Shown: piece by piece, positions 14,311 to 60,854 of the stretch | Layout: each line of letters begins with the position of its first letter | Position numbering within the stretch: the stretch's first letter is position 1 | DNA from: Stomorhina lunata | Lineage: Eukaryota > Arthropoda > Insecta > Diptera > Rhiniidae | Length of the DNA: 64,000 nt | Reading direction: 5' to 3' | Assembly: GCA_933228675.1 (NCBI GenBank) | Contig: OW121743.1 | Location: forward strand, 17,007,384-17,071,383 | Position numbers and translations under genes: made by a program | Notes under the pieces: generated by a model | Seen by the model: only the letters and a program-made list of their open reading frames with translations | Database searches by the model: none | What the model was told of the DNA's origin: nothing

Positions 14311-14339
14311 CTTAAGGAACAGTTATTGTTCTCACCGCT

Positions 14340-40378: not shown

Positions 40379-42205
40379 AAAGTAGACGATAGGACAAGTT
40401 TTCTATATAGGAAAAATAAAGATAGGATAAGTTTTCTATATAGAAAAAATAAAGATAGAACAAGTTTTCTATATAGAAAAAAAGACGATAGGACAAGTTT
40501 TCTATAAAGAAAAAAAAAAGATAGGGCAAGTTTTCTATATAGAAAAAATAAAGATAGCACAAGTTTTCTATAAAGAAAAAATAAAGATAGAACAAATTTT
40601 CTATACAGAAAAAATGACGATAGGACAAGTTTTCTACATAGAAAAATTGACGATAGGAGAAGTTTTCTACATAGAAAAAATGACGATAGGACAAGTTTTC
40701 TATGTAGAAAAAATGACGATAGGACAAGTTTTCTATAAAGAAAACATAAAGATAGGACAAGTTTTCTATATAAAACAAATAAAGATAAAACAAGTTTTCT
40801 ATATAGAAAAAAAGACGATAGGACAAGTTTTCTATAAAGAAAAAATAAAGATAGTACGAGTTTTCTATATAGAAAAAATAAAGATAGGACAAGTTTTCTA
40901 TATAGAAAAAATGACGATAGGAAAAGTTTTCTATATAGAAAAAATGACGATAGGACAAGTTTTCTATATAAAAAAAATGACGATAGGACAAGTTTTCTAT
41001 ATAGAAAAAATGACGATAGGACAAGTTTTCTATATAGAAAAAATGACGATAGGACAAGTTTTATATATAGAAAAAATGACGATAGGACAAGTTTTCTATA
41101 AAGAAAAAATGACGATAGAACAAGTTTTCTATATAGAAAAAATGACGATGGACAAGTTTTCTATATGGAAAAATGACGATAGGACAAGTTTTCTATAAAG
41201 AAAAAATGACGATAGAACAAGTTTTCTATATAGAAAAAATGACGATGGACAAGTTTTCTATATGGAAAAATGACGATAGGACAACTTTTCTATAAAGAAA
41301 AAATAAATATAGGACAAGTTTTCTATATAGAAAAAATGACGATAGGACAAGTTTTCTATATAGAAAAAATGACGATAGGACAAGTTTTCTATATAGAAAA
41401 AATGACGATAGGACAAGTTTTCTATATAGAAAAAATTACGATAGAACAAGTTTTCTATATAGAAAAAATGACGATAGGACAAGTTTTCTATATAGAAAAA
41501 ATGACGATGGACAAGTTTTCTATATGGAAAAATGACGATAGGACAACTTTTCTATAAAGAAAAAATAAAGATAGGACAAGTTTTCTATATAGAAAAAATG
41601 ACGATAGGACAAGTTTTCTATATAGAAAAAATGACGATAGGACAAGTTTTCTATATAGAAAAAATGACGATAGGACAAGTTTTCTATATAGAAAAAATGA
41701 CGATAGAACAAGTTTTCTATATAGAAAAAATGACGATAGGACAAGTTTTCTATATAGAAAAAATGACGATAGGACAAGTTTTCTATATAGAAAAAATGAC
41801 GATAGAACAAGTTTTCTATATAGAAAAAATGACGATAGGACAAGTTTTCTATATAGAAAAAATGACGATAGAACAAGTTTTCTATATAGAAAAAATGACG
41901 ATAGGACAAGTTTTCTATATAGAAAAAATGACGATAGGACAAGTTTTCTATATAGAAAAAATGACGATAGGACAAGTTTTCTATATAGAAAAAATGACGA
42001 TAGGACAAGTTTTCTATATAGAAAAAATGACGATAGAACAAGTTTTCTATATAGAAAAAATGACGATAGGACAAGTTTTCTATATAGAAAAAAGCTTTCT
42101 ATATAGAAAAAATGAAGATAGGACGACTTTTCTATATAGAACAAATTACGATAGGAAAAGTTTTCTATGTAGAAATTTTTTCTACATAGAAAAAATGACG
42201 ACAGG
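40379..42205 (+). repeat. Minisatellite array e, 33-bp period, about 55 units
   Basis: Units read ATGACGATAGGACAAG followed by TTTTCTATATAGAAAAA. Orientation is opposite to array d and the same as c, f and g. The left part (40380-40900) is mixed with AAAGATAG variants, the right part more uniform. The same 60-odd bases, including ATGACGATGGACAAG and ATATGGAAAAATGACG, recur near 41140, 41240 and 41500, showing duplication of multi-unit blocks. Confidence 0.92.
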
Positions 42206-42712
42206 CCAATTGTTCTATAGAAAAGTTGACGATATTCCAATTTTTCTATGGAAAAGTTGATGATAGGTCAATTTTTCTATAGAAAAGTTGACGATAGGCC
42301 AATTTTTCTATAGAAAAGTTGACGATAGGCCAATTTTTCTATAGAAAAGTTGACGATAGGCCAATTTTTTTTATAGAAAAGTTGACGATAGGCCAAATTT
42401 TCTATAGAAAAGTTCACGATAGGCCAATTTTTCTATAGAAAAGTTGACGATAGGCCAATTTTTCTATAGAAAAGTTGACGATAGGCCAATTTTTCTATAG
42501 AAAAGTTGACGATAGGCCAATTTTTCTATAGAAAAGTTGACGAAAGACCAATTTTTCTATAGAAAAGTTGACGATAGCCAAATTTTTCTATAGAAAAGTT
42601 GGCGATAGGCTAATTTGTTCATAGAAAAGTTGACGTTATGCTAATTTTTCTATAGAACAGTTGGCGATAGGCCTATTTTTCTATAGAAAAGTTGATTTTT
42701 CTATAGAAATGA
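42206..42712 (+). repeat. Minisatellite array f, 31-bp period, about 16 units
   Basis: Directly continues array e, but with the unexpanded TTTTTCTATAGAAAAG palindrome and GTTGACGATAGGCCAA. The change from 33 to 31 bp happens at about 42205-42230. It ends about 390 bp before the predicted start of transcription of UGT exon A. Confidence 0.92.
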
Positions 42713-43097
42713 ATATGTCTTTTCTATAAATGTGTCGATGTTTAAGTCTGTGTATTACTTTCGATGTTAGTCAATCTATTCAATATTTGTGTGTTTGTAT
42801 AGGCTTTGCCCTTATCTTATTCGATATATAAGTGAATGTCCATAACTTACTTTATATCTTTGTTTATGTTTAAGTCTTTGTGCTTATCTATCTGTTAGTC
42901 GTAATAACTTCTTGAAGGGGTGTTATTGAAAGATGATGACAATTTCGTTTTTATTTATTGCAGGTAGTAAAAGACTTACACACAAGAATTTATTAGTGAT
43001 ATTTTCTTTTGAAATACGTAAGATTCTCTTTAAAATTCTCTTAAAAAAAACCTACAATTTCTACAAATTAATAAACAAGTCAATTGTCCGGCCTGAT
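42713..43097 (+). promoter_or_regulatory. Upstream region of UGT exon A
   Basis: The only non-repetitive DNA between array f and the exon A promoter, so any proximal control elements for exon A should be here. Two GATA-type words (TTATCT) are at 42812-42817 and 42884-42889. No TATA box is seen at the expected distance. Assigning GATA control is inference, as such words are common in AT-rich DNA. Confidence 0.35.
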
Positions 43098-43132
43098 CAG
43101 TAGCTGATCGTGGCAGTTCGTGAACAGACGTG
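43097..43132 (+). promoter_or_regulatory. Initiator plus DPE core promoter of UGT exon A
   Basis: TCAGT with its A at 43099 matches the arthropod initiator. AGACGTG at 43126-43132, starting exactly at +28, matches the downstream promoter element, whose function depends on this spacing. There is no TATA box. The predicted 5' leader is 114 nt. Exon B has the same arrangement. Confidence 0.7.
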
Positions 43133-43212: not shown

Positions 43213-43877
43213 ATGAAACTGAGTTACGCTTATTTAATACTAGGCTTGGCCTTTTGCTTTTCAATACCAATCCAGTCTTCACGTATTTTAGGCGTCTTTC
43301 CCTCGCCCTCCAAGTCACACGTCCTAATACACTGTGCTATCGCTGATGCCTTGGCTGAGGCTGGTCATGATGTGACTGTTATAACGACAGTGCCAAATAT
43401 GTATAAAAAATCTAAATATAAATTCATACAAGTCGAAGGACCCATGTTTGATAGTAATTTCGCTCAAAATATGTTAAATAAACCCGCTTCGATTTACCGG
43501 AAATTTAATGGTATTATCTCCCATGTCATTGATATGGGCAATGTCACCTTAAATCAGCCGAAAATTACGGATTTCCTTAAAACACATAAGGCGGGAGATT
43601 TCGATGCCGTGATCTTGGGTTATTTCTTCAATGACTTTATGATGGGAATTGCAGCTCATTTTGAGTGCCCTATAATTTTATCGTTTATGGTCCAGCCAAT
43701 ATTTCCAATTAACAAAATTATTGCTAATCCCTTGGAGTTATCCTATGTACCGAGTTTGTATAGTGGCTACAAGCAGCCGATGGATTTTGCCAGCAGAGTT
43801 AAGAATTTTTTGGCTACTGGCTTTGAGCATCTGTTTTTGGCACCGATAATGCAAAAGAAACTGGAGAAGATGTATGA
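43213..43877 (+). CDS. UGT first exon A: signal peptide and acceptor-binding half of UDP-glycosyltransferase
   Basis: Encodes residues 1-221 plus two bases of codon 222. Residues 1-22 form a hydrophobic signal peptide, followed by SRILGVFPSPSKSHVLIH, with His36 at the position of the UGT catalytic base, then LAEAGHDVTV, HKAGDFDAVILGY, CPIILSF and GYKQPMDF, all typical of fly UGT N-terminal domains. The ATG follows AAATC and starts the signal peptide. The exon ends at a GTAAGT donor (from 43878); reading on gives an immediate stop, so it must be spliced. The phase fits the shared exon at 59948, giving 523 residues after removal of a 16.07-kb intron. It is 73 percent identical to exon B over 222 aligned positions by hand count. 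UGTs conjugate sugars to small lipophilic compounds in the ER; the substrate cannot be told from sequence. Confidence 0.9.
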
Positions 43878-43949
43878 GTAAGTAGATCAAATAAAATAGA
43901 TAAGACTTAGTCTTTACAAAGGTAAAGTCCATGAAATAGACTATAAAAT

Positions 43950-46900
43950 AGTAGACGAAAGGACAAGTTTGATAGTATAAGTAAAGTTGACAATAGTATA
44001 AGTTGGCGATAGTACTGGTTTTCTATGGAAAAGTTGACGATAGTACTGGTTTTCTATAGAAAAGTTGACGAAAGGACAAGTTTTCTATAGAAAAGTTGAC
44101 GAAAGGACAAGTTTTCTATAGAAAAGTTGACGAAAAGACAAGTTTTCTATAGAAAAGTTGACGAAAGGACAAGTTTTCTATAGAAAAGTTGACGAAAGGA
44201 CAAGTTTTCTATAGAAAAGTTGACGAAAGGACAAGTTTTCTATAGAAAAGTTGACAAAAGGACAAGTTTTCTATAGAAAAGTTGACGAAAGGACAAGTTT
44301 TCTATAGAAAAGTTGACGAAAGGACAAGTTTTCTATAGAAAAGTTGACGAAAGGACAAGTTTTCTATAGAAAAGTTGACGAAAGGACAAGTTTTCTATAG
44401 AAAACTTGACGAAAGGACAAGTTTTCTATAGAAAAGTTGACGAAATGACAAGTTTTCTATAGAAAAGTTGACGAAAGGACAAGTTTTCTATAGAAAAGTT
44501 GACGAAATGACAAGTTACTATAGAAAAGTTGACGAAAGGACAAGTTTTCTATAGAAAAGTTGACGATAGTACTAGATTTCTATAGAAAAGTTGACGATAG
44601 TACTAGTTTTCTATAGAAAAGTTGACGATAGTACTAGTTTTCTATAGGAGAGTTGACGATAGTACTAGTTTCCTATAGAAAAGTTGACGATAGTACTAGT
44701 TTTCTATAGAAAAATTAAAGATAGTACTATTTTTTTATAGAAAAGTTGACGATAGTACTAGTTTTCTATAGAAAAGTTTAAGATAGTTCAATTTTTCTAT
44801 AGAAAAGTTGACACAAGGACAAGTTTTCTCTAGAAAAGTTGACGAAAGGACAAGTTTTCTATAGAAAAGTGGACGATAGTACAAGTTTTCTATAGAAAAG
44901 TGGACGATAGTACAAGTTTTCTATAGAAAAGTTGACGTTAGTACAAGTTTTCTATAAAAAAGTTGACGATAGTACAAGTCTTCTACAGAAAAGTTGACGA
45001 TAGTACAAGTTTTCTATAGAAAAGTTGACGATAGTACTAGTTTTCTATAGAAAAGTTGACGATAGTACTAGTTTTCTATAGAAAAATTGACGATAGTACT
45101 AGTTTTCTATAGAAAAGTTGACGATAGTACTAGTTTTCTAGTTGACGATAGTACAAGTTTTCTATAGAAAAGATGACGATAGTACTAGTTTTCTATAGAA
45201 AAGTTGACGATAGTACTAGTTTTCTATAGAAAAGTTGACGATAGTACTAGTTTTCTATAGAAAAGTTGACGATAGTACTTATTTTCTATAGAAAAGTTGA
45301 CGATAGTTCTAGTTTTCTATAGAAAAGTTGACGATAGTACAAGTTTTCTATAGAAAAGTTGACGATAGTACTAGTTTTCTATAGGAAAGTTGACGATAGT
45401 ACTAGTTTTCTATAGAAAAGTTTAAGATAGTTGACGATAGTACAAGTTTTCTATAGAAAAGTTGACGATAGTACAAGTTTTCTATTAAAAAGTTGACGAT
45501 AGTACTAGTTTTCTATTAAAAAGTTGACGATAGTACTAGTTTTCTATAGAAAAGTTGACGACAGTACTAGTTTTCTATAGAAAAGTTGAAGATAGCACTA
45601 GTTTTGTATAGAAAAGTTGAAGATAGTACTAGTTTTCTATAGAAAAGTTGACGATAGTACTAGTTTTCTATAGAAAAGTTGACAACAGTACTAGTTTTCT
45701 ATAGAAAAGTTGACGATAGTACTAGTTTTTTACAGAAAAGTTGACGATAGTACTAGTTTTTTACAGAAAAGTTGACGACAGTACTAGTTTTCTATAGAAA
45801 AGTTGAAGATAGCACTAGTTTTGTATAGAAAAGTTGAAGATAGTACTAGTTTTCTATAGAAAAGTTGACGATAGTACTAGTTTTCTATAGAAATGTTGAC
45901 GACAGTACTAGTTTTCTATAGAAAAGTTGACGATAGTACTAGTTTTTTACAGAAAAATTGACGATAGTACTAGTTTTCTATAGAAAAGTTGACGATGGTA
46001 CTAGTTTTCTAGTTGACGATAGTACAAGTTTTCTATAGAAAAGATGACGATAGTACTAGTTTTCCATAGAAAAGTTGACAATAGTACTAGTTTTCTATAG
46101 AAAAGTTGACGATAGTACTAGTTTTCTACAGAAAAGTTGACGACAGTACTAGTTTTCTATAGAAAAGTTGACGATAGTACTAGTTTTTTACAGAAAAGTT
46201 GACGATAGTACTAGTTTTTTACAGAAAAGTTGACGATAGTACTAGTTTTCTATAGAAAATTTGACGATAGTTTTGGCTTTCTATAGAAAAGTTGACGATA
46301 GTTTTGGTTTTCCATAGAAAAGTTGACGATAGTTTTGGTTTTTTATAGAAAAGTTGACGACAGTTTTGGTTTTCTATAGAAAAGTTGACGACAGTACTAG
46401 TTTTCTATAGAAAAGTTGACGATAGTACTAGTTTTCTATAGAAAAGTTGACGACAGTACTAGTTTTCTATAGAAAAGTTGACGACAGTACTCGTTTTCAA
46501 TAGAAAAGTTGACGACAGTACTAGTTTTCTATATAAAAGTTGACGACAGTACTAGTTTTCTATAGAAAGGTTGACGACAGTACTAGTTTTCTATAGAAAA
46601 GTTGACGACAGTACTAGTTTTCTATAGAAAAGTTGACGATAGTACTAGTTTTCTATAGAAAAGTTGACGATAGTACTTATTTTCTATAGAAAAGTTGACG
46701 ATAGTTCTAGTTTTCTATAGAAAAGTTGACGATAGTACAAGTTTTCTATAGAAAAGTTGACGATAGTACAAGTTTTCTATAGAAAAGTTGACGATAGTAC
46801 AAGTTTTCTATAGAAAAGTTGACGATAGTACAAGTTTTCTATAGAAAAGTTGACGATAGTACAAGTTTTCTATAGAAAAGTTGACGATAGTACAAGTTTT

Positions 46901-46985
46901 CTATAGAAAAGTTGACGACAGTACTAGTTTTCTTTAGAAAAGTTGACGTTAGTACTAGTTTTCTATAGAAAAGTTGATGTAGTAA
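43950..46985 (+). repeat. Minisatellite array g, 31-bp period, about 98 units, inside UGT intron
   Basis: Begins about 70 bp after the exon A donor. Units carry TTTTCTATAGAAAA then GTTGACG followed by a subtype tag: AAAGGACAAG at about 44060-44560 and ATAGTACTAG or ATAGTACAAG from there to 46985, with ATAGTTTTGG locally at about 46265-46375. Orientation is the same as c, e and f. Any transcript starting at exon A must contain all of it before splicing. Confidence 0.93.
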
Positions 46986-47640
46986 AGTTACATTTCTTTT
47001 TCGCACACCCGTTAAATTTTATTTTAAAAAATTGCCTTCTCATTTTTGCATTGATATGACTAAAGCTTGTAAGTACCGCATGTAAAATTACTTATTGTCC
47101 ACTTTAGTGGAGATAACGCTTGACGGAAGATAAGCGATTATTTGCAACAATTAAGTTCTCAAAATTTTATTGTAGGGGAACTGGTAGCTTTTATTAATAT
47201 ACATTTTGTTCTACTAATTGTTATTTATTTGTTATGAAATAATTTTTTTTAAATTCTTATCACGCGAGTATGGAAAGCCGGCAAGTGCAAATAAATTTAG
47301 AAACGCGCAATCAAGTTTTTAATTTGATTGACTTGTGCTTTAAACGTGCCTCTCCTCTGGGGGAGAAAAAGCTTAGGGTTGCGATATTGACCTTTAATAA
47401 AAGTTTAGTTTGTTTATTCAATTAATCAACTTAATAAACATTAACTAATTATTAAGAGAGAGAGGGAGAGTAATTGTTAAGAGTGCATTTGAATTTTAAG
47501 ATCATTTGTAAGAGAATTTAATTCTCTTAAAGTGTGATATTCTTACAATGAGTGAAAATAATTTTTGTAGACTTTTTGCAAATACGTTAAATTTAAAAAG
47601 TGTATATATTCGAAAAAGCTTTGTTCTTATTATAATCGTC
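46986..47640. other. Intronic spacer, nothing recognised
   Basis: AT-rich DNA with a GAGAGAGAGGGAGAG run at about 47455. No exon, in particular no UGT C-terminal exon, is seen. Confidence 0.45.
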
Positions 47641-48640
47641 AAATTTTGATTTTCTGTTAATCGGCCATGCTAAAGACCGTGTGGTGAACCTAGAAAGCAT
47701 CACCTATTGAAATCGGACAAAATCGGTTTACATTTTACCATAGCTCGCGTATAACCTTGGTTAGGCTAATCGCTTATTTGCTAATAAATAACAAACTATA
47801 ATAGCTATGATGATAACATTTTGTATATAGAAGTTTTATATAAGCACTAGCCAGCATATAAAATTTAATTGAAATCGGTTCACATTTAAACATAGCTTCC
47901 ATATAAAAAACTCACTGAAACAGCCAAAATTTCACCTAAAATACACTTAAATGCCAATAAATGATAAACTTTGGCCACTAAATTTAGCATAAGGAAGTCT
48001 TATGCCAACGCCAGCCAGTGTGCCAAACTTTTTTACAATCGGTCACCATTTGACCATAGCTCCCATATAAAAAACTTACGGAAACACACAAATACGAAAA
48101 GAAAAGGGGTTTATGTCCGTCTGTCCGTCAGACAAAAGCGCGATAGCTCCTTAACTACAAGAGCTAGAGGGACAAAATTTTACAAAATTATGTTCGATAT
48201 GTTATAGATGTTGTGTACTGAAAATAAGCGAAATCAGTTTACATTTAGTTAGAGGTCCTATATAACCCCGGCACGGGAATCGCATTAATGCTGACAAATT
48301 GAATACAATTGTAATACCTATGGCGACTAAATTTAGAATGGAGAAGTTTTATGCAACTATTGGTCAGTATATCAAATTTTATAGGAATTGGTCCATATTT
48401 GACTATAGCTTTCATATAAAAAACACTCCAGGAAACCACTAAAATGGCAAAAACTCCAGCTAAAAGCTATTAAATTATAAACCATGATAGCTATGAGCAC
48501 CAAATTTTGCATAAATAAGCTTTATGTAAATACCGGCCAGTATATAGAATTTTGTGACAATTGGTCAACATTGGCTGTAGTTCTTATATATATAACATCC
48601 CCTTTACATATCTACAATCAAAAAGATTTGGAGGTTCATT
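47641..48640. repeat. Dispersed non-coding repeat with diverged ~200-bp internal units
   Basis: Phrases such as AAATCGGTTTACATTT, GACCATAGCTCCCATATAAA and GCCAGTATATCAAATTTTA recur every 180-200 bp (about 47720, 47870, 48040, 48230, 48390, 48550). GTCCGTCTGTCCGTCAGAC lies at about 48116. It resembles the 2.5-3.3 kb repeat. No coding sequence. Confidence 0.55.
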
Positions 48641-48809
48641 CAATATATTAACATTGCACCATGGAAATGAGATAGCTACCAATCAATGTTAAGTCCAGAC
48701 TTTATATATGGTGGATGCATTAGAAGCTCCAAACAAAATATATGGACCTGTTGTATTACTATCAACATTTTTATTCTAACTACATATTAAGCGCAACGAA
48801 AAGTATTTA

Positions 48810-48850
48810 ACAGCTTAGTACCTGGTTGACCGAGCCTTGCTCGGAGCTTT
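48810..48850 (-). repeat. Hairpin terminus of a possible Helitron-like element
   Basis: CCGAGC-CTT-GCTCGG (48830-48844) forms a 6-bp stem. On the minus strand it is followed after 11 bases by CTAAG, resembling the hairpin plus CTRR end of Helitrons. The base after CTAA is G rather than the usual T, so this is weak. The tandem array to its right would be internal to such an element. Confidence 0.25.
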
Positions 48851-48889
48851 ATGATAAACGTTTCGAGGCAAAATTTTCAAGTTTTCATT

Positions 48890-50165
48890 ACAGTTTTGAA
48901 TCATTTTATTCATTTCATCCGATCAACACATGAACAAATGCATAGCTTACAGTTCAATTAATTTTGAATAACTTTTTAAATTGGTCATATCAACTAAGAA
49001 ACCTTCGTCGGTTCATGCGCACCAACTTTGCTAAAGATTATAGAAGGATGTAATGCACAGTTTACGATTTAATTGATTTTGAGTCATTTTCAGCGACGCC
49101 ATCTATAGGAAATTGGTTATATCAAGTGAGAAACCTTCGTCGGCCCATGCGCAACAACTTTGCTAAAGATAGCCTAATCAAATGCACAGTTTACGATTAA
49201 ATTAATTTTAAGAAATTTTGTAGTGGCGCCACCTGTCGGAAATTTATCATACTAACTAGGAAACCTTCGTCGGCTGATGCGTTATAACTTCTCTCATGAT
49301 CATAACATGATCAAATGCACAGTTTACGACTTAATTCACTTTGTGTAATTTCTGTAGCGCCACCTGTCGGAAATTTGTTATAACAACCAAGAAACCTTAA
49401 CCGACTCATGAGCAATAACTTTGCCAGTTTACGATTAAATTAATTTTGAGAAATTTTTAGTGGCGCCACCTGTCGGAAATTTATCATACTAACTTGAAAA
49501 CCTTCGTCGGCTCATGCGTTATGACTTCTCTAATGATCATAGCATGATCAAATGCACAGTTTACGACTTAATTCACTTTGAGTAATTTAAGTAGTGCCAC
49601 CTGTCGGAAATTTGCTATACCAACCAAGAAACCTTTGACGACTCATGAGCAATAACTTTGCCAGTTTACGATTAAATTAATTTTGAGAAATTTAGTGGCG
49701 CCACCTGTCGGAAATTTATCATACTAACTAGGAAACCTTCGTCGGCTCATGCGTTATAACTTCTCTAATGATCATAGCATGATCAAATGCACAGTTTACG
49801 ATTTATTTAATTTTCAGTAATTGTCAGTGGCGCCACCTGTCGGAAATTTGTTATAACAACCAAGAAACCTTTAACGACTCATGAGCAATAACTTTGCCAG
49901 TTTACGATTAAATTAATTTTGAGAAATTTAGTGGAGCCACCTGTCGGAAATTTATCATACTAACTTGGAAACCTTCGTCGGCTCATGCGTTATGACTTCT
50001 CTAATGATCATAGCATGATCAAATGCACAGTTTACGATTTATTTAATTTTCAGTAATTGTCAGTGGCGCCACCTTTCTGAAATTAGCCATACTTCAAACC
50101 TTCGTCGGCTCATGTGCAACAACTTTCCTAAAGATCATAACATGATCAAATGCATAGTTTACTAT
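48890..50165. repeat. Alternating 131/104-bp tandem array, GGCGCCACCTGTCGGAAATT core
   Basis: Ten units anchored on ACCTTCGTCGGC or ACCTTTAACGAC begin near 49001, 49133, 49263, 49394, 49500, 49631, 49734, 49867, 49971 and 50098. The first three steps are 130-132 bp. Then long (about 131) and short (about 104) units alternate, giving a dimeric higher-order repeat of about 235 bp. Long units carry CATGCGTTATAACTTCTC and GATCATAGCATGATCAAATG; short units carry CATGAGCAATAACTTTGCC. Confidence 0.85.
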
Positions 50166-50245
50166 TCTATAAAGGTTTGTCTGTCTGAAAAACACTAATT
50201 TTTTTAAAGTTATAACATTACCAATTTTTTCCCCTTTTTATCCCC

Positions 50246-50288
50246 TTCTTCTTCTTCTTCTTCTGTTATCCTTGACTCCCAGTGGATC
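50246..50288 (-). mobile_element. 43-bp stub of a non-LTR retrotransposon 3' tail with target-site duplication
   Basis: The minus strand reads CCACTGGGAGTCAAGGATAA, then CAGAAG and a GAA run. It is flanked by the perfect 9-bp direct repeat TTTATCCCC (50237-50245 and 50289-50297). The tail matches that at 1261-1308. A tail next to a duplication is what target-primed reverse transcription with extreme 5' truncation leaves. Confidence 0.8.
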
Positions 50289-50297
50289 TTTATCCCC

Positions 50298-51290
50298 TAA
50301 TTTCAAAAAAGCTTCATATGCATATTTGGTACTTCTTTGGACCAATTGAAATCGGTATATTTTATAAAAACGCATTTAACATATTGTTACTATTCATATG
50401 ACTTCATGCGGTGTTAAGTTATCATTTTATCCCTTTTAACCCTTTTCGCCCCCCTCCGAAATCAAAAAAGTACCAAATATGTATTTAATATTTTTTTTTC
50501 ACATCTATTGATTGCAGTACAAAGTTCCTTTCTAACTTTTTCTGTTCAAAAGATAAGAGTAAGTTAACAAAGTACTAAAAAATTAGTTTTACCCTTTTGG
50601 ATATAATTTCCCTTTAATTTCTAAAAATTTTCTATTTTCGGAAGTTTTAGCCAACCATTTTTTTATTGTTCTACAGCCAATATTATTTTTTTACATCGAC
50701 AGCGTGTTATAGCTGTAGGTCTTACCACCGATAGAGTACGCTGTAGTAATTCATAATTTTAATACAAATTATTAGTTACGAGCCCTTGACTGGGGCTCGA
50801 ACCCAGGCAGATTATGATATGTTACTCTTATCTTCAAATTATTTAGTCTAGGGGTTTGTGATATATGTAAGGGCTCGCTAAACAAATGTGACTCGCTTTT
50901 TTGAACTCATCATGAAGTTTGGTTTATAGCCTCTATTAGAAAATTGTTATATTAGGTATTGGAATGCATTTCATAAGAGATACACTAAATTTCCTGCTGT
51001 CTGATATCAGCGCTCGCTATCAGATAATGTCCATAATTTTTTATTAAATCAACATAATTTCACTCGCTTTGAAGCAAAAAGCGACCCACCTTAATGTTTA
51101 TCTCTTTCCATCAATCTTACCTTTAATCATTTTGAGTTTGTACTCAATATTTAAACGTTATCTCTTCTAATATTGAATTCTCTTTTATAAGTTGCAGTCC
51201 CCAAAAAAATTTGGGTGGAATGTGGTTTTTGTCCAAAAAAAAAAAAAAAATCGGTTGTTTATTTATATTCTATAAAAAAATTGACCGGTT
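50298..51290. other. Intronic or upstream DNA of UGT exon B
   Basis: No C-terminal UGT exon. A minus-strand GGTTCGAGCCC at about 50790-50800, matching a pol III B box, lies beside a GAGCCC/GGGCTC hairpin, possibly a tRNA-derived SINE remnant, but no convincing A box was found. Bases 50873-50925 resemble 1015-1065. Two TTATCT words at 51098-51103 and 51158-51163 precede the exon B promoter. Confidence 0.35.
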
Positions 51291-51292
51291 GA

Positions 51293-51328
51293 TTAGTTGT
51301 TGGTCGCGGTAGTGCGTGGAAAGACGTC
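51293..51328 (+). promoter_or_regulatory. Initiator plus DPE core promoter of UGT exon B
   Basis: TTAGTT with A at 51295 acts as initiator, and AGACGTC at 51322-51328 starts at exactly +28. The surrounding bases align with the exon A promoter (ATTGACCGGTTGATTAGTT versus ATTGTCCGGCCTGATCAGT), showing common ancestry. A TATAAAA at 51271 is only 24 bases upstream, closer than usual. The predicted 5' leader is 104 nt. Confidence 0.65.
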
Positions 51329-51398
51329 TTTTTTTGAAGTCGTCTAAAAAAATAATAATTCGTTAATTAAATTTTATTTATACTAAAACTGTTGAATC

Positions 51399-52063
51399 AT
51401 GAATCTGCGCTACGCCTTTATTTTACTGGGATTAGCCTTTTGTTGTGCTCTACCCAGTCAGGCCTCACGCATTTTAGGTGTCTTTCCCTCACCCTCACCT
51501 TCACATTTATTGATCCACTGTGCGGTAGCCGATGCCTTAGCTGAGGCCGGTCATGAGGTGACCGTTCTGGCTACAGTGCCCAATATGTATAAAAAATCGA
51601 AATACAATTATATACAAGTCGAGGGAGCCTTATTTGACAAAAACTTTGCTGCGGGCATGGTCAATAATCCCGCCTCCGTTTATTGGAAATTTAATGAGAT
51701 TGTGACTGGAGTCATTAGAATGGCTAATATCACCTATAATAGCCCGAAAATGCAGGATTTTCTCAACACCCACAAGGCCGGAGATTTTGATGCCCTGATC
51801 TTGGGTTATTTTTTAAATGATTTTATGTTGGGTATGGGAGCTCATTTCCAGTGTCCCATCATATTGTCGTTTATGGTTCAACCGATTTTTTCTCTTAATA
51901 ATTTGATTGGTAACCCCCTGGAGCCCTCATATGTGCCCTCTTTATATATGGGCTATAAACAGCCTATGGATTTCTGTAGTAGAGTTAAGAACTTTTTGGC
52001 TACCGGTTTTGAGAATGTGTTTGTGGGGAAAATAATGCAGAAGAAAATGGAAAAGATGTATGA
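51399..52063 (+). CDS. UGT first exon B: signal peptide and acceptor-binding half of UDP-glycosyltransferase
   Basis: Exactly the same length as exon A, 221 codons plus two bases. The signal peptide is residues 1-22, then SRILGVFPSPSPSHLLIH with His36, LAEAGHEVTV, HKAGDFDALILGY and GYKQPMDF. It ends in a GTAAGT donor (from 52064), and read-through gives an immediate stop. Splicing to 59948 removes 7.88 kb and joins in frame. It differs from exon A at 59 of 222 positions, concentrated in the signal peptide, residues 81-120 and 161-171, while the structural core is kept. That pattern suggests selection for different acceptor binding rather than decay. No stop or frameshift is present. Confidence 0.9.
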
Positions 52064-52118
52064 GTAAGTGTTTAAAATAAAAATATTTCAAATTTCAAAA
52101 ACATATGTTAGTAATGAT

Positions 52119-52460
52119 GTTCGATCAAACCATACGAGTTTGGAGTCATCGAATAGCTGATTGTATGATTGAAATTATTAAATACTAACATATGCCTAAT
52201 CTTGCATAAAGATCAAGAAGTTCGATCAAACCACACGAGTTTGAAGCCAACCGATAGTTAATTATATCATTGAAATTATTTAATACTGTCATATGCTTAA
52301 TCTTGAATAAACATCAAGAAGTTCGATCAAACAGCTCGAGTTCGAAACTAAACAATAGCAAATTATTTGGTAGGAATTATTTCCAACTACAAAATAAGTT
52401 TATCTTGCTTAAACTAGAGTAAAAAGTTCGATCAAACCGCTCGAGTTCGAAACCAGCCAA
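52119..52460 (+). repeat. About 103-bp tandem repeat, four copies, between UGT exons B and C
   Basis: GTTCGATCAAAC followed by CGAGTTTGAA or CGAGTTCGAA occurs at 52119, 52220, 52321 and 52426, with spacings of 101, 101 and 105 bp. Between the cores, CATATGCTTAATCTTGAATA is shared by the first copies. It lies 260-600 bp upstream of the exon C start codon, so it may act on exon C or may be plain repeat. Confidence 0.8.
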
Positions 52461-52718
52461 AAGTGAAATGTTTTATTAAAATCTTAATCTCAAAACTATT
52501 TTCTCACTAGAATTTGCACTTCTAAACTATAAAATTCAATTTAGATAAGATAAATTTGATAATTTTGGCACATGTTAGGTTCTTGCCATTAACAAACTTA
52601 AGATATTAGCAAAAGTTCTTTAAAACAGCCAGAAGTGCTGGCGTTGACGGAAAGTGTATCTATCATTGAAGCTAGTCTGTAAATCGTGCCTATAATCGTA
52701 TAATCATATAAAAAAGAC
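52461..52718 (+). promoter_or_regulatory. Putative proximal upstream region of UGT exon C
   Basis: Two overlapping AGATAA words lie at 52553-52563. The initiator/DPE arrangement of exons A and B was not found. A TCATTG initiator-like word is at about 52662-52667, but no DPE is at +28. Placement of a promoter here is inferred only because exon C begins with its own ATG and signal peptide. Confidence 0.3.
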
Positions 52719-53383
52719 ATGAGGATCCAAATTTCTTCTTTGTTGATAGTCCTAAACTACCTCTGCCAAACACTCACGGAAGCCTCCCGCATTCTCAGTG
52801 TATTTCCTTCGCCCTCAAAATCTCATCTTCTAATACATTGTGCCATAGCCGAAACTCTAGCCGAGGCTGGTCATGATGTAACCGTTATTGCCTCTTTACC
52901 GAATATATATCCGCGAGCTAAATATCGTTATATACATGTGGAGACCACCATGGTTATGTCCAATTTGACTCAAGAAGCCCTGGAAAAGCCCACTCATATC
53001 TACAGAAAACTCAAAGACGTAGTACCTCAATTGCTTCAAACGTCCAATAAGACCCTAAATCAAGTTGAGATGTTGGATTTTTTGAGAACCCACAGAGCGG
53101 GAGACTTTGATGCCCTAATTGTGGGCTATTGTCTGGATGATTTTGTACTGGGTTTGGGTGCACATTTTCAATGCCCCATAATTGTTTCATTTGTGATACG
53201 GCCTATTTTTCCCATACATCGCATGATGGGCAATCCTTTGGAGGTTTCAAATGTGCCCACGCTGTATAGTGGTTTCGGGCAACCAATGGATTTTAAGGAG
53301 AGAGTTCTTAACTTTTTGGCTCATGGCTATGAGCAGTTGGTATTGGATAGATTTATGTTGCGAACAACGGAGGAATATTATAG
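52719..53383 (+). CDS. UGT first exon C: signal peptide and acceptor-binding half of UDP-glycosyltransferase
   Basis: Again 221 codons plus two bases. Hydrophobic residues 5-20 form a signal peptide, then SRILSVFPSPSKSHLLIH with His36, LAEAGHDVTV, HRAGDFDALIVGY, CPIIVSF and GQPMDF. The donor is AG-GTGAGT (intron from 53384), the same phase as A and B. AG plus A makes Arg222 before Tyr223, where A and B give Glu222. It is about 51 percent identical to exon B by hand count, so it split off much earlier than A from B. It is nearest to the shared exon, with a 6.56-kb intron, and may be the ancestral partner. The whole frame is intact. Confidence 0.9.
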
Positions 53384-54440
53384 GTGAGTGAGAAAGAACT
53401 TAGAGATAGACTTATGCTAAGACATAGACTAAAACATGGACTAAGGCATATCCGATATTTCATTTCGGATATCTTACAGACATAGGTAATTTTGGGACTT
53501 TATCTATTAGAATTATTCATCATAAGACTTCAAAATCGATCCTTTATTTAGGGTATCTAAAAGTACTTTATGTGACCTTTGAAATATTGGTTCCATATTG
53601 GAACCACTGCCGGAAATATCTTAATACACATAAATATCAGGAAAATGTCGGTATGAAACCAAAATTTAACATATATTTTGCTAAGCTTTAAAAAAGCTTT
53701 CAAATTGTTGGCAATCGGCCCACAATATATTTAGGGTATAGGGTATTATAGTTTTGGTGTTGCGTGATTGACCGATTAGTGTGAGTACTTTTTTACTTTC
53801 TTGTACTTTTCAAAAATTCTCCATTATCTCCTCTTTTTATCTTTATAAGAAGTCATTGTTCGATAAGGTGGCTTACTTTTGTTATAAAGTTGAAAGCACT
53901 TTTTTTAGAGGTCAATATCACAACCTAGAATTATCCCACCGAGAGAGAGAGAGAGTGAGAAAGAGAGCGTAAGGTTCTAGTTATACGCTCAAACAATTTT
54001 TAACGTTTGTTTGCACTTACCGGCAAAACGGCCATGGAAACTTGCGTGAGCATAATAAAATATACAAGCTTTGAAATAAATAATAGAAAAAAGACAACAA
54101 AAAAATTATAATATGTTTTAAAAACAAATTTGTATTATTAGAAGCGACGGCTCCCTTTAATGTTAGAATTTTGATACTATCAATTGTTATATTTTGATTA
54201 TGACAGTAGCTGCTCAATAAATACACACGCGTCTAGAAACTACTTAACTATAAGTTTGATATCAAAGATGACAAAGCCATTTTGATAATAATGCATCTAT
54301 TTTTACACTTAGTATTAGGAATTACGAATTTTCGAACATGATTGTGAAATTCAAAAAATTGCCTGAAATGTGGTTTTTATCTGTTATTTGTCAACCAATT
54401 ATATCAGATAAAATTTAAAGGCAAAAATTATAAAAATTTT
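53384..54440. other. Start of the intron shared by all UGT transcripts
   Basis: Bases 53405-53450 hold the ACATAGACTAAG-type 12-bp motif that also occurs just before the 3' exon. A GAGAGAGAGAGAG run is at 53941-53960. No exon is seen. Confidence 0.45.
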
Positions 54441-57400
54441 TACTATTTTCGTTATGTTCGAAATTTCGAACATAATTTCGAAGTTTAAGAAATGCATTAA
54501 AATTGTTATTTTATGAATATTTATGCTTAAATAAACCAAAAAGTAATTTTTATCAACATTTTTTTTTAGATTTACAAATTTCGAATATTCGAATATAATT
54601 TCCAAATTGAAAAAAGTGATAAAAATGTATTTTTTAATAATAAAATGTTATTCCAGTTAAAACAAAGCTTAAATAATCAAAATTTTTATCATTTTTTTCA
54701 AGTTCGAATTTTCGAACTTAATTTCGAAATTTCAAAACCGTCTTAAATGTGTTATTTAGTAGTTAAAAATAATTCTAAAAGTATTAAGAAACTAAAATAA
54801 TCATAATTTTAAAAAATTTTAGCAATTTCGAATTTTCGAACTTAATTTTGAAACTGCAAATTGACTTAAATTTAACAAAAAATTGGTTTAACCTGCTTAA
54901 CTTTATTAATTCAAATATTTATCAAAGAATCCTAAGCTATAATAAACATAATTTCTAACATTTTCTGCTTGTTCGAATTTTCGAACATAATTTCGAAATT
55001 GAAAATTAGACGAATTTGTGTTTTGTTACTTCTTTAATTTTATTCCCAAAAATCTTAAGCTAAAATAATCATAATTTTCAACATTTTATGCTAGTTCGAA
55101 TTTTCGAACTAAATTTCGGAACTAAAAAACTGGTATGAATTCGATATTTTATTGCTTTAGTTATATCCCAAAGAATCTAAAGCTAAAATAATCATAAATT
55201 TCTCCATTTTCTGCAAGTTCGAATTTTCGAACTTAATTTCGAAATTGCAAAATCGGTTTAAATTTGTTTAATTTTCGCCATAATTATATTCAAAAGAATA
55301 TTAAGCTTAAATAATCATAATTTTCAACATTTGCTGCAATTTTGAATTTTCGAACTTGATTTCGAATTGTAAATCTTAATTTTAAAATTTCAAAAATAGT
55401 AAAGTATTTTTATTTGAGAGCCATCAATTTCAGAAAGAATATAAAGCTAAACAAATCTCGTTTTTTTTTTTATCAATTTCTGTAAGTTCGAATTTTCGAA
55501 CATAGTTTTGAAACTGCAAAATTTGTTAAAATTTATTTTTTTAATACTAAAACTTTATTCAAAAGAATCTAAAGTCAAAGAAATCATAATTGTTACCATA
55601 TTTTGCAAGTTCGAATTTTCGAACATAATTTCGAAATTGTAATATTGCTTGAAATGTGCCATAATATTATTAATATTGCTTCAGAATGAATAAAAAGCTC
55701 AAATTATCTTTTTTCCAACATTTTTCACAAATTCGAATTTTCGAACTTAATATCGAACTGAAATATACTTTTATGTAATTATATATAATCAAAAGGTATG
55801 TTTTTTATTTTATTGCTATTATTATATTTAAAAAATAATTTTAGTATCATATTTTCAACACTTTCTTCAAGTTCGAATTTTCGAAATAATATGGAATATT
55901 AAAAGTGTTAAAAAAAATTATTTATAATTAACATTAATATTAGATATAAATTAAATTTGAAGTTGCAACAATTTTTTAATTTAAAGTTATAATTGCAAAT
56001 TTTGAAGAAGTTCGAATTTTCGAACTTAATTTCCAAACCGAAATATTGACTTAAATATATAATTTTGTAGACATATTTGGTAAAATATTACACTTAAGAA
56101 AAATTAACGCCAAAATTATCACAAAATATAACTTTTTTTAGTATGTTCGAACTTTCGAACATAATATCGAATTTTAAAATTTGGATAAAAAACGTGATTT
56201 TTATATTTTGTCTGGCCAAATTTCTATTAGGTAGAATTTTTTGTTAAAATAATCTTAATTTTTGAAACTTTTAGTAAGTTCGAATTTTCGAACTAAACTT
56301 TGAAGTGAAAAAATTTACTCAAATGTCTGTTTTTTATATAATTTCTAATAAAAAATAGTAAAAGTAACAATTAAACTTTTAAATTGTCATAATTTTTAAA
56401 CTTTTTGGAAAGTTCGAATTTTCGAACTTAATTTCGAAATTAAAAAATAGATTAAAATATACTTCCTTATAACTATTTATTGCAAAAGCCTATCCCAGGA
56501 TGAATTTAAAGTTAAAATGATTTCATTTTTGAATGTTTTCAGAATGTTTGAATTTTCGAACATAATTTCGAAATTTAAAAATTGAATAAAATGTACTCTT
56601 ATATAATTATATATAATCAAAAACAATATTCGCAATAGTTTGAAGTTCAAATGATAACATTTTTATAATTTTTAGAATATTTGAATTTTCGAACATAATT
56701 TCGAAATCAAAAAATTAAGTAAAACATGGCATTTTTTTCATTTTTTCTTGCAAAAAATTCTTCCGGAGGGAATTTCCAAAGATATAATAAAAAGTAGTAT
56801 AATTTTAAAAGGTTCGAATATTCGAACTTAACTTCGAAACTAAAAAAAATACAAAAATTAACTTTTTTATAATACATTTTAATAAAAATGATGACAAAAA
56901 CAAATAAAAATTTAAATTACTACAGTTTTTGAAAATTTTAAAATGTTCGAATATTCGAACATAATTTCGAAATCAATAAAATAACTTAAATGTTCTTTTT
57001 TATAATTATTTATGATAAAATATTATATCAGGAAGAAATCAAGGTTAAAATTATCACAATTTTGACCATTTTTAGGTTGTTAGAATTTTCGAACTTATAT
57101 AATGATTTAAATTTAACAATTTTTTGTTTACAAATTTTATAAGAAATAAATTTATGTCGAAATTGTAAATTTTTTTTGACATTTTAAGAAGTTCGAATGT
57201 TCGAACATAATTTCGAAACTGTAATATTGACCTAAATTCACCATTTTATAATCATATTCTGGTTAAAAATTATATAATAACGCATTTTTAGTAAAATTGA
57301 CAACAGTTTTGAACATTTTTAGACGATTCAAATTTTCGAACATAATTTCGAAATTGTGAAATTGGAAAAAAGGTGTTTTATTTTAAATTTTTCTGCTAAA

Positions 57401-59380
57401 AGCTGTTATCAGACAGAATTTAATGTTGAGATGGTAACAATATTGAGTCATTTCAAGAAGTTCGAATTTTCGAACATAATTTCGAAATTGTAAAATTCAC
57501 TTAAATGAGTTAAAAATTATATAAAAGCGCATTTTTAGTAGAAATGATCACAGTTTTGAACATTTTTAGGAGTTTGAAATTTTCGAACATAATTTCGAAA
57601 TTGTAAAATTGCTTTAAACGTGTTTTATTTTGAACTTTTCTGGTAAAAGACCAGATCAGACAGAATTTTATCTTAAAATGGCAACAATATTGAGTCATTT
57701 TAAGATGTTCGAATTTTCGAACATGATTTGGAAGTTGTAAAATTCACTTAAATGAGTTAAAAATTATATAAAAGTGCATTTTGCGCAGAAATGATCAAAG
57801 TTTTGAACATTTTTAGAAGTTTTAAATTTTCGAACATAATTTCGAAATTGTGAAGTTGGATAAAATGTGTTTTATTTTAAACTTTTCTGGTAAAAGCTTC
57901 AATTTTATGTTGAAATGGTAACAATATTGAGCCATTTTAAGATGTTCGAATTTTCGAACACAATTTCGAAATTGTAAAATTTACTCAAATGAGTTAAAAA
58001 TTATATTAAAACATATTTTCAGTATAAATGAACACAGTTTTGAACATTTTTAGGTTGATTAAGACAAAATTTAATGTTAAAATGTTAAGAATTTTGAGTC
58101 ATTTTCAGATGTTCGAATTTTCGAACATAGTTTCGAAATTGTAAAATTTACTTTAATAAGTTTAAAATTATAAAAAGCGCATTTTAAGTAAAACTTACCA
58201 CAGTTTTGCACATTTTTAGACGATTTAAATTTTCGAACTTAATTTCGAAATTGTAAAATTTGGTAAAATAAGTTTTGTTTAAAACTTTTCTGGTACAAGG
58301 TACTATAAGACAGAATTTTATGTTAAAATGAGAACAATATTGAGTCATTTTGGGAATTTCGAACACAATTTCGAAATTGTAAAATTTACTCAAATGAGTT
58401 AAAAATTATATTAAAACATATTTTCAGTATAAATGAACACAGTTTTGAACATTTTTAGACGATTGAAATTTTCGAACTTAATTTCGAAATTGTGAAATTG
58501 GGTTAAATGTGTTATATTTTGAACTTTGCAGGTAAAAGCTTTAGTCAGAAAGAATTTTATTTTAAAATGATCACAATTTTGAATCATTTTCAGATGGTCG
58601 AATTTTCGAACATAATTTCGAAATTGTAAAATTCACTTAAATTAATTAATTTTAGTTATCAGAAATAAATTTATGTCGAAATACTAACAATTTTTGACAT
58701 TTTAAGAAGTTCGAACTTTCGAACATAATTTCGAAAATAGAATATTGACCTAAATTTACCATTTTATAATCATATTCTGGTTACAAATTTTATAAAATCG
58801 CATTTTTAGTAGAAATGATGACAGTTTTGAATATAATAAAAAAATAAATTTTCGAACATAATTTCGAAGTTGTGAAATCGGGTAAAATGTATTTTATTTT
58901 AAACTTTTCTGATAAAAGGTTGATTAAGGCAGAATTTAATGTTAAAATGTTAAGAATTTTGAGTCATTTTCAGATGTTCGAATTTTCGAACATAGTTTCG
59001 AAATTGTAAAATTTACTTTAATAAGTTTAAAATTATAAAAAGCGCATTTTAAGTAAAACTTACCACAGTTTTGAACATTTTTAGACGATTTAAATTTTCG
59101 AACTTAATTTCGAAATTGTGAAATTTGGTAAAATAAGTTTTGTTTAAAACTTTTCTGGTACAAGGTACTATAAGACAGAATTTTATGTTAAAATGAGAAC
59201 AATATTGAGTCATTTTGGGAATTTCGAATTTTCGAACATAATTTCGAAATTGTAAAATTCATCTAAATGAGTTTTTAAACAACCATTTTGTTGAAATAAC
59301 ACAAATTCTAAATGATTTGAGTCTATTAGAGACACGAATTTATACATTTTTAACTAGTTCGAATTTCCGAATTGCTGCTT
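54441..59380 (+). repeat. About 125-bp tandem array, TTCGAA palindromes, about 40 diverged units, inside the shared UGT intron
   Basis: Each unit has GTTCGAATTTTCGAAC, arms of 7 bp around TT, followed by ATAATTTCGAAATT, which contains the perfect palindrome AATTTCGAAATT. Example starts are 54971, 55094, 55217, 55486, 55610, 56413, 57462, 57706, 58597 and 58977. The spacer is AT-rich and highly diverged, yet the palindromic pair persists. From about 57190 to 59220 units are more alike, and a multi-unit block around 58060-58390 recurs at 58910-59240. Confidence 0.85.
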
Positions 59381-59947
59381 TATCGTTTGCATTGTATTTT
59401 GGATAGAATATAAGATTGTTTGGGACTATCAATTTATTTTTAAACGCTAACATATCTCAGTTTTGTGTGAATAGAATAATTAATTGTTTTTATATTTTAA
59501 ATGCAAAAAAAAAGTCATAATGATTTAGCAGTTATTTAATTGTTTATTCTATTTCAGAAGTTTTAGACTGATAAGAAATTAAAAGTAATAAAAATAAGTG
59601 TGCCAATAGCTAAAAGAAGATATGAAATTTTGGGTAGAGCTATTTTTAATCGAGATCTTTGTTGTAAAACTGATAAAACCAACAAAATAACCATATAGTT
59701 AATTTTAAAATAAAAATTGACCAAAATATAGGCCAAGACATGGACTAAGGCATGGACAAAGAAATAGATAAGGACATACACAAAGACATACATATACTTA
59801 GGAGTAAACTAAGGTATAACCTAAGATATTAATTGAAAAAGCTTCATTCAATAATAAAGGGATTCTAAAGGTTCGATCTGTTTTTCTTTCTATACTTTTT
59901 TTTTTATCAATATTGTTCTCAAATCTCTAATTTTCTTATCCTTACAG
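59381..59947 (+). other. End of the UGT intron with 12-bp motif, polypyrimidine tract and acceptor
   Basis: GACATGGACTAAGGCATGG and related 12-bp words lie at 59728-59830. A pyrimidine-rich tract follows and ends in CTTATCCTTACAG, the acceptor at 59946-59947 used by all three first exons. Confidence 0.7.
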
Positions 59948-60854
59948 ATACAACTTCCCCACCGATCGTTATCTCCCCTTGGACGAGGTCTACAAAAATG
60001 TCTCTCTAGTCCTAACCAATCATCACTTTAGTCAAGGACCCATTAGACCTAATGTTCCCGCCCTTATCGAAATCGGTGGCATACAAATCAAGGAAAAACC
60101 TGATCCTTTACCCAAAGACTTGGCCGATATCATGGACTCGGCCGATAAAGGTGTTATCTTCTTCAGTCTGGGCACCAATGTTCAAGGCTCTAATCTCTCT
60201 AAGGACAAGGCGAAAATGATCTTTAATGTGCTCTCCAAATTACCCTATACCGTCCTACTCAAATGGGGTGATTCTGATTTCCCGGGTCAATCTAAGAATA
60301 TAGTTTATAGCTCATGGCTGCCTCAAGATGATATATTGGCTCATCCGAAAGTCAAGCTTTTCATAACTCATGGCGGTATGGGCAGTGTGGTAGAGTCCCA
60401 ATATCATGGTGTCCCCATGGTAGGTATACCCTTCTTCGGTGATCAACATTCCAATATTGCCAATGTTGAGAAATCTGGATTTGGCTTGGGTCTGGAGTAT
60501 GCCAGCTTTAGTGAGGAGAAATTCCGTAAGACGGTCTTGGAGGTTTTGGAAAATCCTAAGTACAGTAAAAGTGTACAAAAATTCTCGCAGCTGTATCGTG
60601 ATAGACCCATGACTCCCAGGCAATTGGTGCGCTACTGGGTGGAGTATGTGATCAGACACAATGGAGCCAAGCATATGCAATCGCCTGTTGTCAATATGAC
60701 CTGGTGGCAATTGTATTCTGTGGATGTTATTGCTTTCCTAATGTCAATCGTTTTGGTTATTGTGGCCATTTTGGTGGGCTTGTGTAAGATCATGTGCTGC
60801 CGTGGCAAGGCGGGTCAGGTGAAGAAGGTTTCCAAGAGCAAAAAGCAAAAGTGA
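59948..60854 (+). CDS. Shared UGT 3' exon: UDP-sugar-binding half, membrane anchor and ER-retention tail
   Basis: Begins after the CTTACAG acceptor. Its first base completes codon 222 and the frame runs 301 further codons to TGA. In the 523-residue protein, residues 223-261 contain NVSLVLTNHHFSQGPIRPNV. The UGT signature spans about 345-388: WLPQDDILAHP, then LFITHGGMGSVVESQYHGVP, then PFFGDQ, with Asp387-Gln388 the donor-sugar contact expected in the family. RDRPMTPRQ is at 440-447. A hydrophobic anchor covers about 480-501, then CCRG and a basic tail ending KKQK, a KKXX dilysine motif for ER retention. It is complete and needs no further exon. No second copy exists in the window, so exons A and B have no other partner here. 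The opposite-strand ORF is a shadow. Confidence 0.95.

Follow-up and report, generated by a model that had tools for sequence, protein, structure and literature searches.

Does one locus of the calyptrate fly Stomorhina lunata encode three UDP-glycosyltransferases (UGTs) that differ in their front halves and have a single back half in common? Three open first exons, A, B and C, lie upstream of one exon, E2, in the window analyzed, a stretch of 64,000 nucleotides of contig OW121743.1 (Table 1). The initial annotation took this arrangement for a single locus whose alternative first exons are joined to one shared catalytic 3′ exon. The sequence, together with identical C-terminal halves in related flies, supports that reading, and A, B, C and E2 very probably form one UGT locus in which three coding first exons serve as alternatives upstream of a common 3′ exon.

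Exons, protein motifs and upstream sequences

The three first exons are each 665 nt long, and all frames are open. Donor junctions are TATGA/GTAAGT in A and B and TATAG/GTGAGT in C. The E2 acceptor, TTCTTATCCTTACAG/ATAC, has a phase that fits all three donors, and a branch-point-like CTAAT is found 17 nt upstream of E2. A + E2, B + E2 and C + E2 would each encode 523 amino acids, with the sole stop at the end. The locus displays tandem phase-matched coding first exons and one common 3′ part, as expected of a UGT1A-type variable-first-exon cluster. The exon limits, donor phases and single fitting acceptor given in the initial annotation are correct to the base, and its identities counted by hand (A–B ∼73%, B–C ∼51%) agree with ungapped values of 162/221 (73.3%) and 113/221 (51.1%); that of A–C is 118/221 (53.4%).

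Table 1. Positions of predicted features in the window (position 1 is its first nucleotide).
Feature	Position	Strand	Description
Inr + DPE-like core promoter of A	43097..43131	+	TCAGT, AGACGT at +28; start codon +115
First exon A	43213..43877	+	221 codons + 2 nt; signal-peptide-like start, acceptor-side N half; donor GTAAGT at 43878
31-bp-unit array	44000..46984	.	∼96 copies; inside A intron
Inr + DPE-like core promoter of B	51293..51327	+	TTAGT, AGACGT at +28; start codon +105
First exon B	51399..52063	+	221 codons + 2 nt; donor GTAAGT at 52064
Short repeat	52119-52366		2.5 copies of ∼101 bp; between B and C
First exon C	52719..53383	+	221 codons + 2 nt; donor GTGAGT at 53384
Degenerate repeats	54923..59258	.	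Periods 113-403 bp, rich in TTCGAATTTTCGAA-type palindromes; intron before E2; no tandem-repeat row covers 55375-56391
Common exon E2	59948..60854	+	End of N domain, UDP-sugar-binding C domain, UGT signature, anchor, lysine-rich tail, stop
Poly(A)-signal-like AATAAA	60879..60884	+	First of four, all within 246 bp after stop

By profile, signature, dyad and anchor alike, the predicted product is an animal UDP-glycosyltransferase (Pfam UDPGT, GT-B fold). The second part of the UDPGT profile matches E2 with E 4.3e-74 (250.6 bits). The first part matches A with E 1.7e-6 (27.6 bits), B with 1.2e-5 (24.8 bits) and C weakly with 3.4e-4 (20.0 bits), all four exons lying above the curated cut-off of 19.5 bits. 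The UGT signature FITHGGMGSVVESQYHGVPMVGIPFFGDQ, in the pattern printed in PMC6429375, is found in E2 at protein residues 360-388. A hydropathy peak of 3.2 at residues 482-500 represents the predicted C-terminal anchor and is followed by a basic tail. H36, the His of SxSH, and Asp141 are kept in A, B and C; by alignment, these are taken to be the catalytic dyad, and the N half of each form would carry both presumed catalytic residues. Among 64 aligned relatives, the His is found in 60 and the Asp in only 45.

The initial annotation assigned the sugar-donor half and membrane anchor to E2. This holds, but E2 appears to cover in addition the final ∼50 residues of the N domain. PDB alignments from sequence searches cover the C domain only and do not cross the exon junction; the junction was placed with an AlphaFold2 model of a Cochliomyia relative (P0004), not of the Stomorhina protein. 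With this model, the best Foldseek match is TuUGT202A2 (8sfw, TM 0.60/0.73). In the sequence searches, UGT2B C-domain constructs begin to match at query residue ∼270-274.

Candidate core promoters that match the Inr and DPE consensus sequences precede A and B. The A site is the sole 11-of-11 Inr + DPE match on the plus strand of the window. As the motif by itself is no more frequent than shuffling predicts (2 found vs 3.00 expected), the weight of the two putative sites lies in their position and in A–B conservation, not in motif frequency. Both sites lie in a block of 56 columns common to the upstream sequences of A and B. Its local score is 45; the highest value reached was 36 among 200 shuffles and 35 among 500 dinucleotide-block shuffles. 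With the block masked, the next alignment has an ordinary score of 27, reached by 93/500 shuffles. No Inr + DPE of at least 9/11 was found in 650 bp as a core promoter of C, and TATAAAA at 52528 and 52707 was judged unpersuasive in this role. Intron flanks of A, B and C show no similarity above shuffles, nor does the upstream sequence of C compared with that of A or B.

Conservation of the first exons and relatives with a common C-half

Comparison of A and B gives dN 0.16-0.17, dS 0.89-1.33 and dN/dS ∼0.13-0.18 by NG86 and LWL85 (NG86 yields no dS for A–C), with 41/23/103 differences at the three codon positions, 221 sites each. Judged by these substitutions, A and B diverged under purifying selection. 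A and B are sisters in the tree (98/95) and group with Lucilia sericata X2, Calliphora vicina X2 and Cochliomyia isoform 2 (99/94). By this placement they are sister duplicates of a single blow-fly first exon, and either arose on the Stomorhina lineage or are older and were lost from the sampled relatives. C groups with Cochliomyia hominivorax isoform 3 (100/97), both on fairly long branches; unlike this placement, its top identity, 57%, is to an A-type exon, Calliphora X2. The initial view of the first exons as old yet still open fits C and the exon ancestral to A and B, but not A and B themselves, which the tree presents as copies. As B is without an ortholog of its own, its junction with E2 is a prediction from the sequence.

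Related proteins were compared from 27 species, 23 of them with at least two compared rows. In 17 of these 23, at least two different N-halves (34-75% alike) are found on one identical C-half. All but one of the 17 are schizophoran, and in these 16 the identity begins at YNFP, with its codon at the exon border, or ≤5 residues earlier. Isoform labels are present on 38 of the 51 rows of species with a shared C-half, examples being Lucilia sericata X1-X3 and Cochliomyia isoforms 1-5. Cochliomyia isoforms 2 and 3 have an identical C-half; thus the annotation of this relative joins both an A-type and a C-type exon to one C-half. Blow flies, house-fly relatives and tephritid fruit flies all have gene models of the same layout. 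Most of the proteins compared are themselves gene models, and it is from labels and identical C-halves, rather than genomic coordinates, that each set is assigned to a single locus. By eye, one model of Lucilia cuprina (P0001) appears to chain two first exons onto one C-half.

These comparisons bear on a reading in which the working gene consists of C and E2 only, A and B being remnants of complete duplicated genes whose 3′ exons were lost. The spacing is consistent with it: C is nearest to E2 (6.6 kb), and the A intron would extend over 16.1 kb, beyond the satellite array. Yet the frames of A and B are uninterrupted and their donors intact, their differences are mostly at third positions with the low dN/dS given above, A-type exons are annotated on a common C-half in Lucilia, Calliphora and Cochliomyia, and tblastn finds no trace of lost 3′ exons in the window. 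Such decay is very unlikely.

The same search addresses whether A and B have C-terminal exons of their own that the assembly collapsed or dropped, which would make the locus a row of tandem complete genes. The arrays at 44000-46984 (A–B) and 52119-52366 (B–C) are places where assemblies fail; collapse at such repeats, the 3-kb array in the A intron and 52119-52366, could conceal an exon. The window, however, contains no N or other ambiguous bases, so that the assembly gap contemplated in the initial annotation is not found. In addition, tblastn with the N- and C-halves of relatives (E up to 1) detects no further UGT exon in the 64 kb: the matches are A, B, C and E2, and the best of 26 others has E = 0.1. 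The gap between B and C is 655 bp and an exon of 907 bp would have to be absent whole, and relatives display a single C-half for orthologous exons. Missing C-terminal exons are considered extremely unlikely.

Protein data alone cannot distinguish a shared exon from gene conversion among tandem complete genes, which could likewise leave relatives with identical C-halves. Conversion, however, would have to account for up to five N-halves with identical C-halves in one species, where source labels are those of isoforms, and for paralogs of the same group that have no isoform labels and vary in the C-half (64-92% alike in Teleopsis, 60-83% in Eupeodes). The DNA of the window has a single E2, and the probability of this explanation is close to negligible.

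Proposed mechanism and comparison with known UGT loci

With alternative first exons on a common E2 as the preferred reading, the locus can probably make three enzymes from interchangeable front halves on a common back half. Each first exon would be transcribed from its own promoter. The donor of the exon that starts the transcript would bypass any later first exon and join E2 at 59948; skipping is expected, since neither B nor C is immediately preceded by an acceptor-like tract. The products would be up to three membrane-anchored UGTs with the same sugar-donor domain and anchor; most of the acceptor side would differ among them, as would the half with the presumed catalytic His and Asp. Diversity would increase by duplication of a promoter and first exon, not of a whole gene.

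By analogy, the fly locus may operate like vertebrate UGT1 (UGT1A), where tandem coding first exons for the signal peptide and acceptor side are spliced to a common 3′ part with the sugar-donor domain and anchor, and where first exons are gained and lost by lineage (PMC3325998, PMC2819257). Vertebrate UGT1 has four or five common exons; the S. lunata locus has one. Exon 1 of human UGT1A9 ends at c.855, i.e., 285 codons, with intronic variants named c.855+n (PMC3325998), but the fly first exon ends in mid-codon at 665 nt, carrying over 2 nt, and the fly junction is ∼50 residues earlier. As the intron positions differ, the fly and vertebrate layouts are probably convergent.

Closer counterparts are the NCBI 'UGT5-like/UGT4-like' multi-isoform models of Calliphoridae, Muscidae and Tephritidae (e.g., Bactrocera dorsalis X3/X6), which have the same border at YNFP and several N-halves on an identical C-half. 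First exons of the blow-fly members group with A/B or with C. The number and kinds of first exons vary by lineage, and the A/B pair appears lineage-specific in S. lunata. Alternative exon usage in an insect UGT is also known from UGT46A1/UGT46A2 of Bombyx mori (Lepidoptera), as cited in PMC9209448.

In Drosophila melanogaster, members of the same superfamily are described as single complete genes, 19 of 35 with two exons; splice variants are given only for Ugt50B3 and Ugt303B1, and in the part of that account considered here no shared C-terminal exon is reported (PMC8010143). The earlier statement that the arrangement is not the usual fly layout is therefore sound for D. melanogaster but not for calyptrates and tephritids, where the layout recurs. 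Sixteen of 18 listed drosophilid rows were used, none from melanogaster; they belong to a different C-half clade. Forks within the 65-row clade do not separate one origin of the calyptrate and tephritid shared exons from two, and long branches may meet there.

Evolution and significance

The chances seem evenly balanced for a broader hypothesis: schizophorans evolved a UGT1A-like locus independently and retained it, with rapid turnover of first exons, as calyptrates and tephritids radiated, and it was lost on the drosophilid line. Novel substrate ranges in these flies would come from duplication, onto a single catalytic exon, of promoter–first-exon cassettes, some of which (Asn for His, in Stomoxys and Haematobia) would have changed a catalytic residue.

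The architecture is of a known kind and its fly variant apparently undescribed: at the level of titles and the beginnings of abstracts, in a literature from which subscription papers were mostly absent, no shared-exon UGT locus of flies was found, which falls short of proving absence. Plant toxins and insecticides are substrates for conjugation by UGTs. Should a single fly locus exchange its acceptor half while the donor half stays fixed, the number of genes counted in blow flies, stable flies and tephritid pests may misstate the number of enzymes, and models may string first exons together, as apparently in P0001. Reads or RNAi directed at E2 would strike all isoforms together, and exon-1 probes would tell them apart. 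The locus would also provide a second, convergent case beside vertebrate UGT1 for why detoxification genes take this layout.

Exon organization and coding capacity

The initial annotation described three UGT first exons (A, B and C) of equal phase and open frame on a single C-terminal exon (E2), a UGT1A-like layout in a fly, and the exon sequences, Pfam matches and tblastn searches bear this out. A, B and C each begin with an ATG and a hydrophobic stretch, all three frames are open, and each exon ends two bases into a codon that E2 completes in frame. The products A+E2, B+E2 and C+E2 are all 523 residues long. A pyrimidine-rich tract precedes E2, with CTAAT 17 nt before the exon. On the Pfam UDPGT profile, the first exons match the first part and E2 the second. 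Identities are 73.3% (A-B), 53.4% (A-C) and 51.1% (B-C), in agreement with the values of ∼73% and ∼51% first given for A-B and B-C. The window itself speaks against C-terminal exons of A and B hidden in an assembly gap: it has no ambiguous bases, and tblastn with relatives' halves detected no further UGT exon (best other match E = 0.1). The observation stands because of the exon structure, the identities, the Pfam placement, the empty tblastn search and the gap-free window.

Exons, repeats and other elements of the window
Feature	Position	Strand	Remarks
First exon A	43213-43877	+	665 nt; donor GTAAGT
First exon B	51399-52063	+	665 nt; donor GTAAGT
First exon C	52719-53383	+	665 nt; donor GTGAGT
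Common exon E2	59948-60854	+	907 nt
11-bp array	14068-22124		∼732 copies of GTTATAGTTAT (98% match)
11-bp array	25384-27581		∼199 copies of AACTAGAACAG (97%)
31- to 33-bp unit array	30927-34440
31- to 33-bp unit array	36174-39156		Array creates mechanical ORFs, 990 aa (+) and 967 aa (-)
31- to 33-bp unit array	40385-42695
31- to 33-bp unit array	44000-46984
Degenerate repeats	54923-59258		Periods 113-403 bp; TTCGAATTTTCGAA-type palindromes
12-bp motif	27579-27688		Distant array
12-bp motif	∼53418-53448		By eye
12-bp motif	59735-59789
ORF	481-792	-

Between A and B, 41 first, 23 second and 103 third codon positions differ, each out of 221 (dN 0.16-0.17, dS 0.89-1.33), a pattern that points to divergence under long-lasting purifying selection. 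The presumed catalytic pair, H36 and D141, is kept in A, B and C; of 64 relatives, 60 retain the His and 45 the Asp.

The four arrays of 31- to 33-bp units are related and have the core TTCTATAGAA or TTCTATATAGAA, and the two 11-bp arrays are very regular. Degenerate repeats take up much of the intron before E2. A 12-bp motif (ACATAGACTAAG / AAGACATGGACA) occurs close to either end of the C-E2 intron and again in a distant array, an arrangement that would fit expansion of this intron between two copies. In its text, the minus-strand ORF resembles part of a non-LTR retrotransposon reverse transcriptase.

Shared C-terminal halves in other flies

Searches with A+E2, C+E2 and E2 alone returned fly proteins, many with isoform labels. 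The 103 named rows from the A+E2 and C+E2 searches, mostly automatic gene models, were cut at the exon border into N- and C-halves and compared within species; the accession style of a small number of UniRef rows (from Zeugodacus and some Bactrocera) suggests transcriptome entries. The matches listed cover 27 species, 23 with two or more rows, and in 17 of these at least two rows have an identical C-half. Such sets comprise 51 rows (38 with an isoform label among the matches listed), whose N-halves are 34-75% alike. On one C-half there are at least five N-halves in Cochliomyia hominivorax, at least four in Eurosta solidaginis and at least three each in Lucilia sericata, Calliphora vicina, Musca autumnalis, Haematobia irritans, Bactrocera tryoni, B. 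dorsalis, B. oleae and Zeugodacus cucurbitae (one of the three partial). At least two each are found in Musca domestica, Anastrepha ludens, A. obliqua, B. neohumeralis, B. latifrons and the hover fly Episyrphus balteatus, and Stomoxys calcitrans has at least three on each of two different C-halves. In all 16 schizophoran species with shared sets, identity begins at YNFP, the border in the window, or at most five residues before it. Among the matches listed, no identical C-half was found in Ceratitis capitata (2 rows), Drosophila ficusphila (2), Eupeodes corollae (9), Hermetia illucens (6), Megaselia abdita (4) or Teleopsis dalmanni (3); two Megaselia rows of one name from the E2-alone search (P0144, P0147) have identical ends.

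The Episyrphus isoforms P0068 and P0076 have identical C-halves and N-halves 53% identical; this shared exon, outside Schizophora, perhaps had a separate origin. The two C-halves of the muscids Stomoxys and Haematobia are 78-81% alike, and the three separate N-halves on each in Stomoxys suggest that these muscids have two shared-exon cassettes. One first-exon class, which sits on a shared C-half and forms its own long branch, has Asn for the presumed catalytic His (SN vs SH; P0047 and P0050 of H. irritans, P0048 of S. calcitrans), as do hover-fly rows P0105 and P0107. This class may lack catalytic activity or rely on a different mechanism. Inspected by eye, the gene model P0001 of Lucilia cuprina (896 aa) appears to have two consecutive first exons on one C-half, probably an annotation artefact of the shared-exon layout.

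In a tree of 44 N-halves, A and B are sisters (98/95), nested with L. sericata X2, C. vicina X2 and Cochliomyia isoform 2 (99/94). C pairs with Cochliomyia isoform 3 (100/97), yet plain identity puts it equally near Calliphora X2 (57%). These groupings make it probable that C and the ancestor of A/B already existed as distinct first exons before the split from Cochliomyia. The A/B duplication probably came later on the Stomorhina lineage, or is older and was lost elsewhere. The description of the first exons as old yet still open thus probably fits C and the A/B ancestor; A and B may be later copies of one another.

In the C-half tree, E2 groups with three blow-fly C-halves (100) and lies outside the cluster that these form among themselves (97), which probably places the source of the window among calyptrates outside those three genera. 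Of the 18 drosophilid rows among the matches listed, 16 were used; all of these fall in a separate clade, which also holds Musca, Stomoxys and Cochliomyia rows listed without isoform label. No shared-exon UGT is reported for D. melanogaster in the excerpt of PMC8010143. Judged by this and by the matches listed, the locus was likely lost in drosophilids. Deep forks between calyptrate and tephritid shared loci are unsupported and compatible with one or more origins.

Protein junction, putative promoters and splicing

For the Cochliomyia relative P0004, an AlphaFold2 model (mean pLDDT 85.9, from a 64-row alignment) displays a long helix, 193-225, nearly ended by the junction at residue 223. E2 contributes a helix (234-238) and two strands (241-246, 262-264), taken to form the end of the N-terminal domain; in the A+E2 product, the match to solved human UGT2B C-domain chains begins at residue 270-274. 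As E2 encodes this end, the first exon would set most, not all, of the acceptor side. The human UGT1A9 first exon extends ∼50 residues further along the protein, to c.855 (excerpt of PMC3325998), and ends between codons, whereas those in the window end mid-codon. The two layouts are alike in working but have no common intron, and are therefore probably convergent.

The 500 bp upstream of A and B are alignable only in one 56-column block, with a score of 45 against maxima of 36 in 200 shuffles and 35 in 500 dinucleotide-block shuffles. With the block masked, the next alignment scores 27, matched by 93 of 500 shuffles. The block holds TCAGT/TTAGT and, at exactly +28, AGACGT, which we take to resemble the Inr and DPE consensus motifs. 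The strict pattern occurs twice in the whole window, both times at these sites; shuffles average 3.00, so that by itself the motif says little. None was detected upstream of C. In zebrafish, each variable exon of the Ugt1 and Ugt2 clusters is described as having its own promoter (excerpt of PMC2819257); for the window, we infer a separate promoter for each first exon.

One simple pattern scan of the 300 bp ahead of each of the three start codons detected no acceptor-like tract; later first exons would therefore be skipped as intron. Owing to the phase, unspliced transcripts of all three would run into TAA or TGA inside the donor, so intron retention would yield a clean N-half fragment.

No description of a shared-exon UGT locus in flies was found among the titles and abstract openings searched. 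The kind is ordinary, a UGT with alternative first exons, and is already visible in public gene models. The three-first-exon locus is real, has good support from comparison, and is probably functional. The pre-mRNA would start at the promoter of A, B or C and its first donor would join the acceptor at 59948, and promoter choice would set which enzyme each tissue makes.
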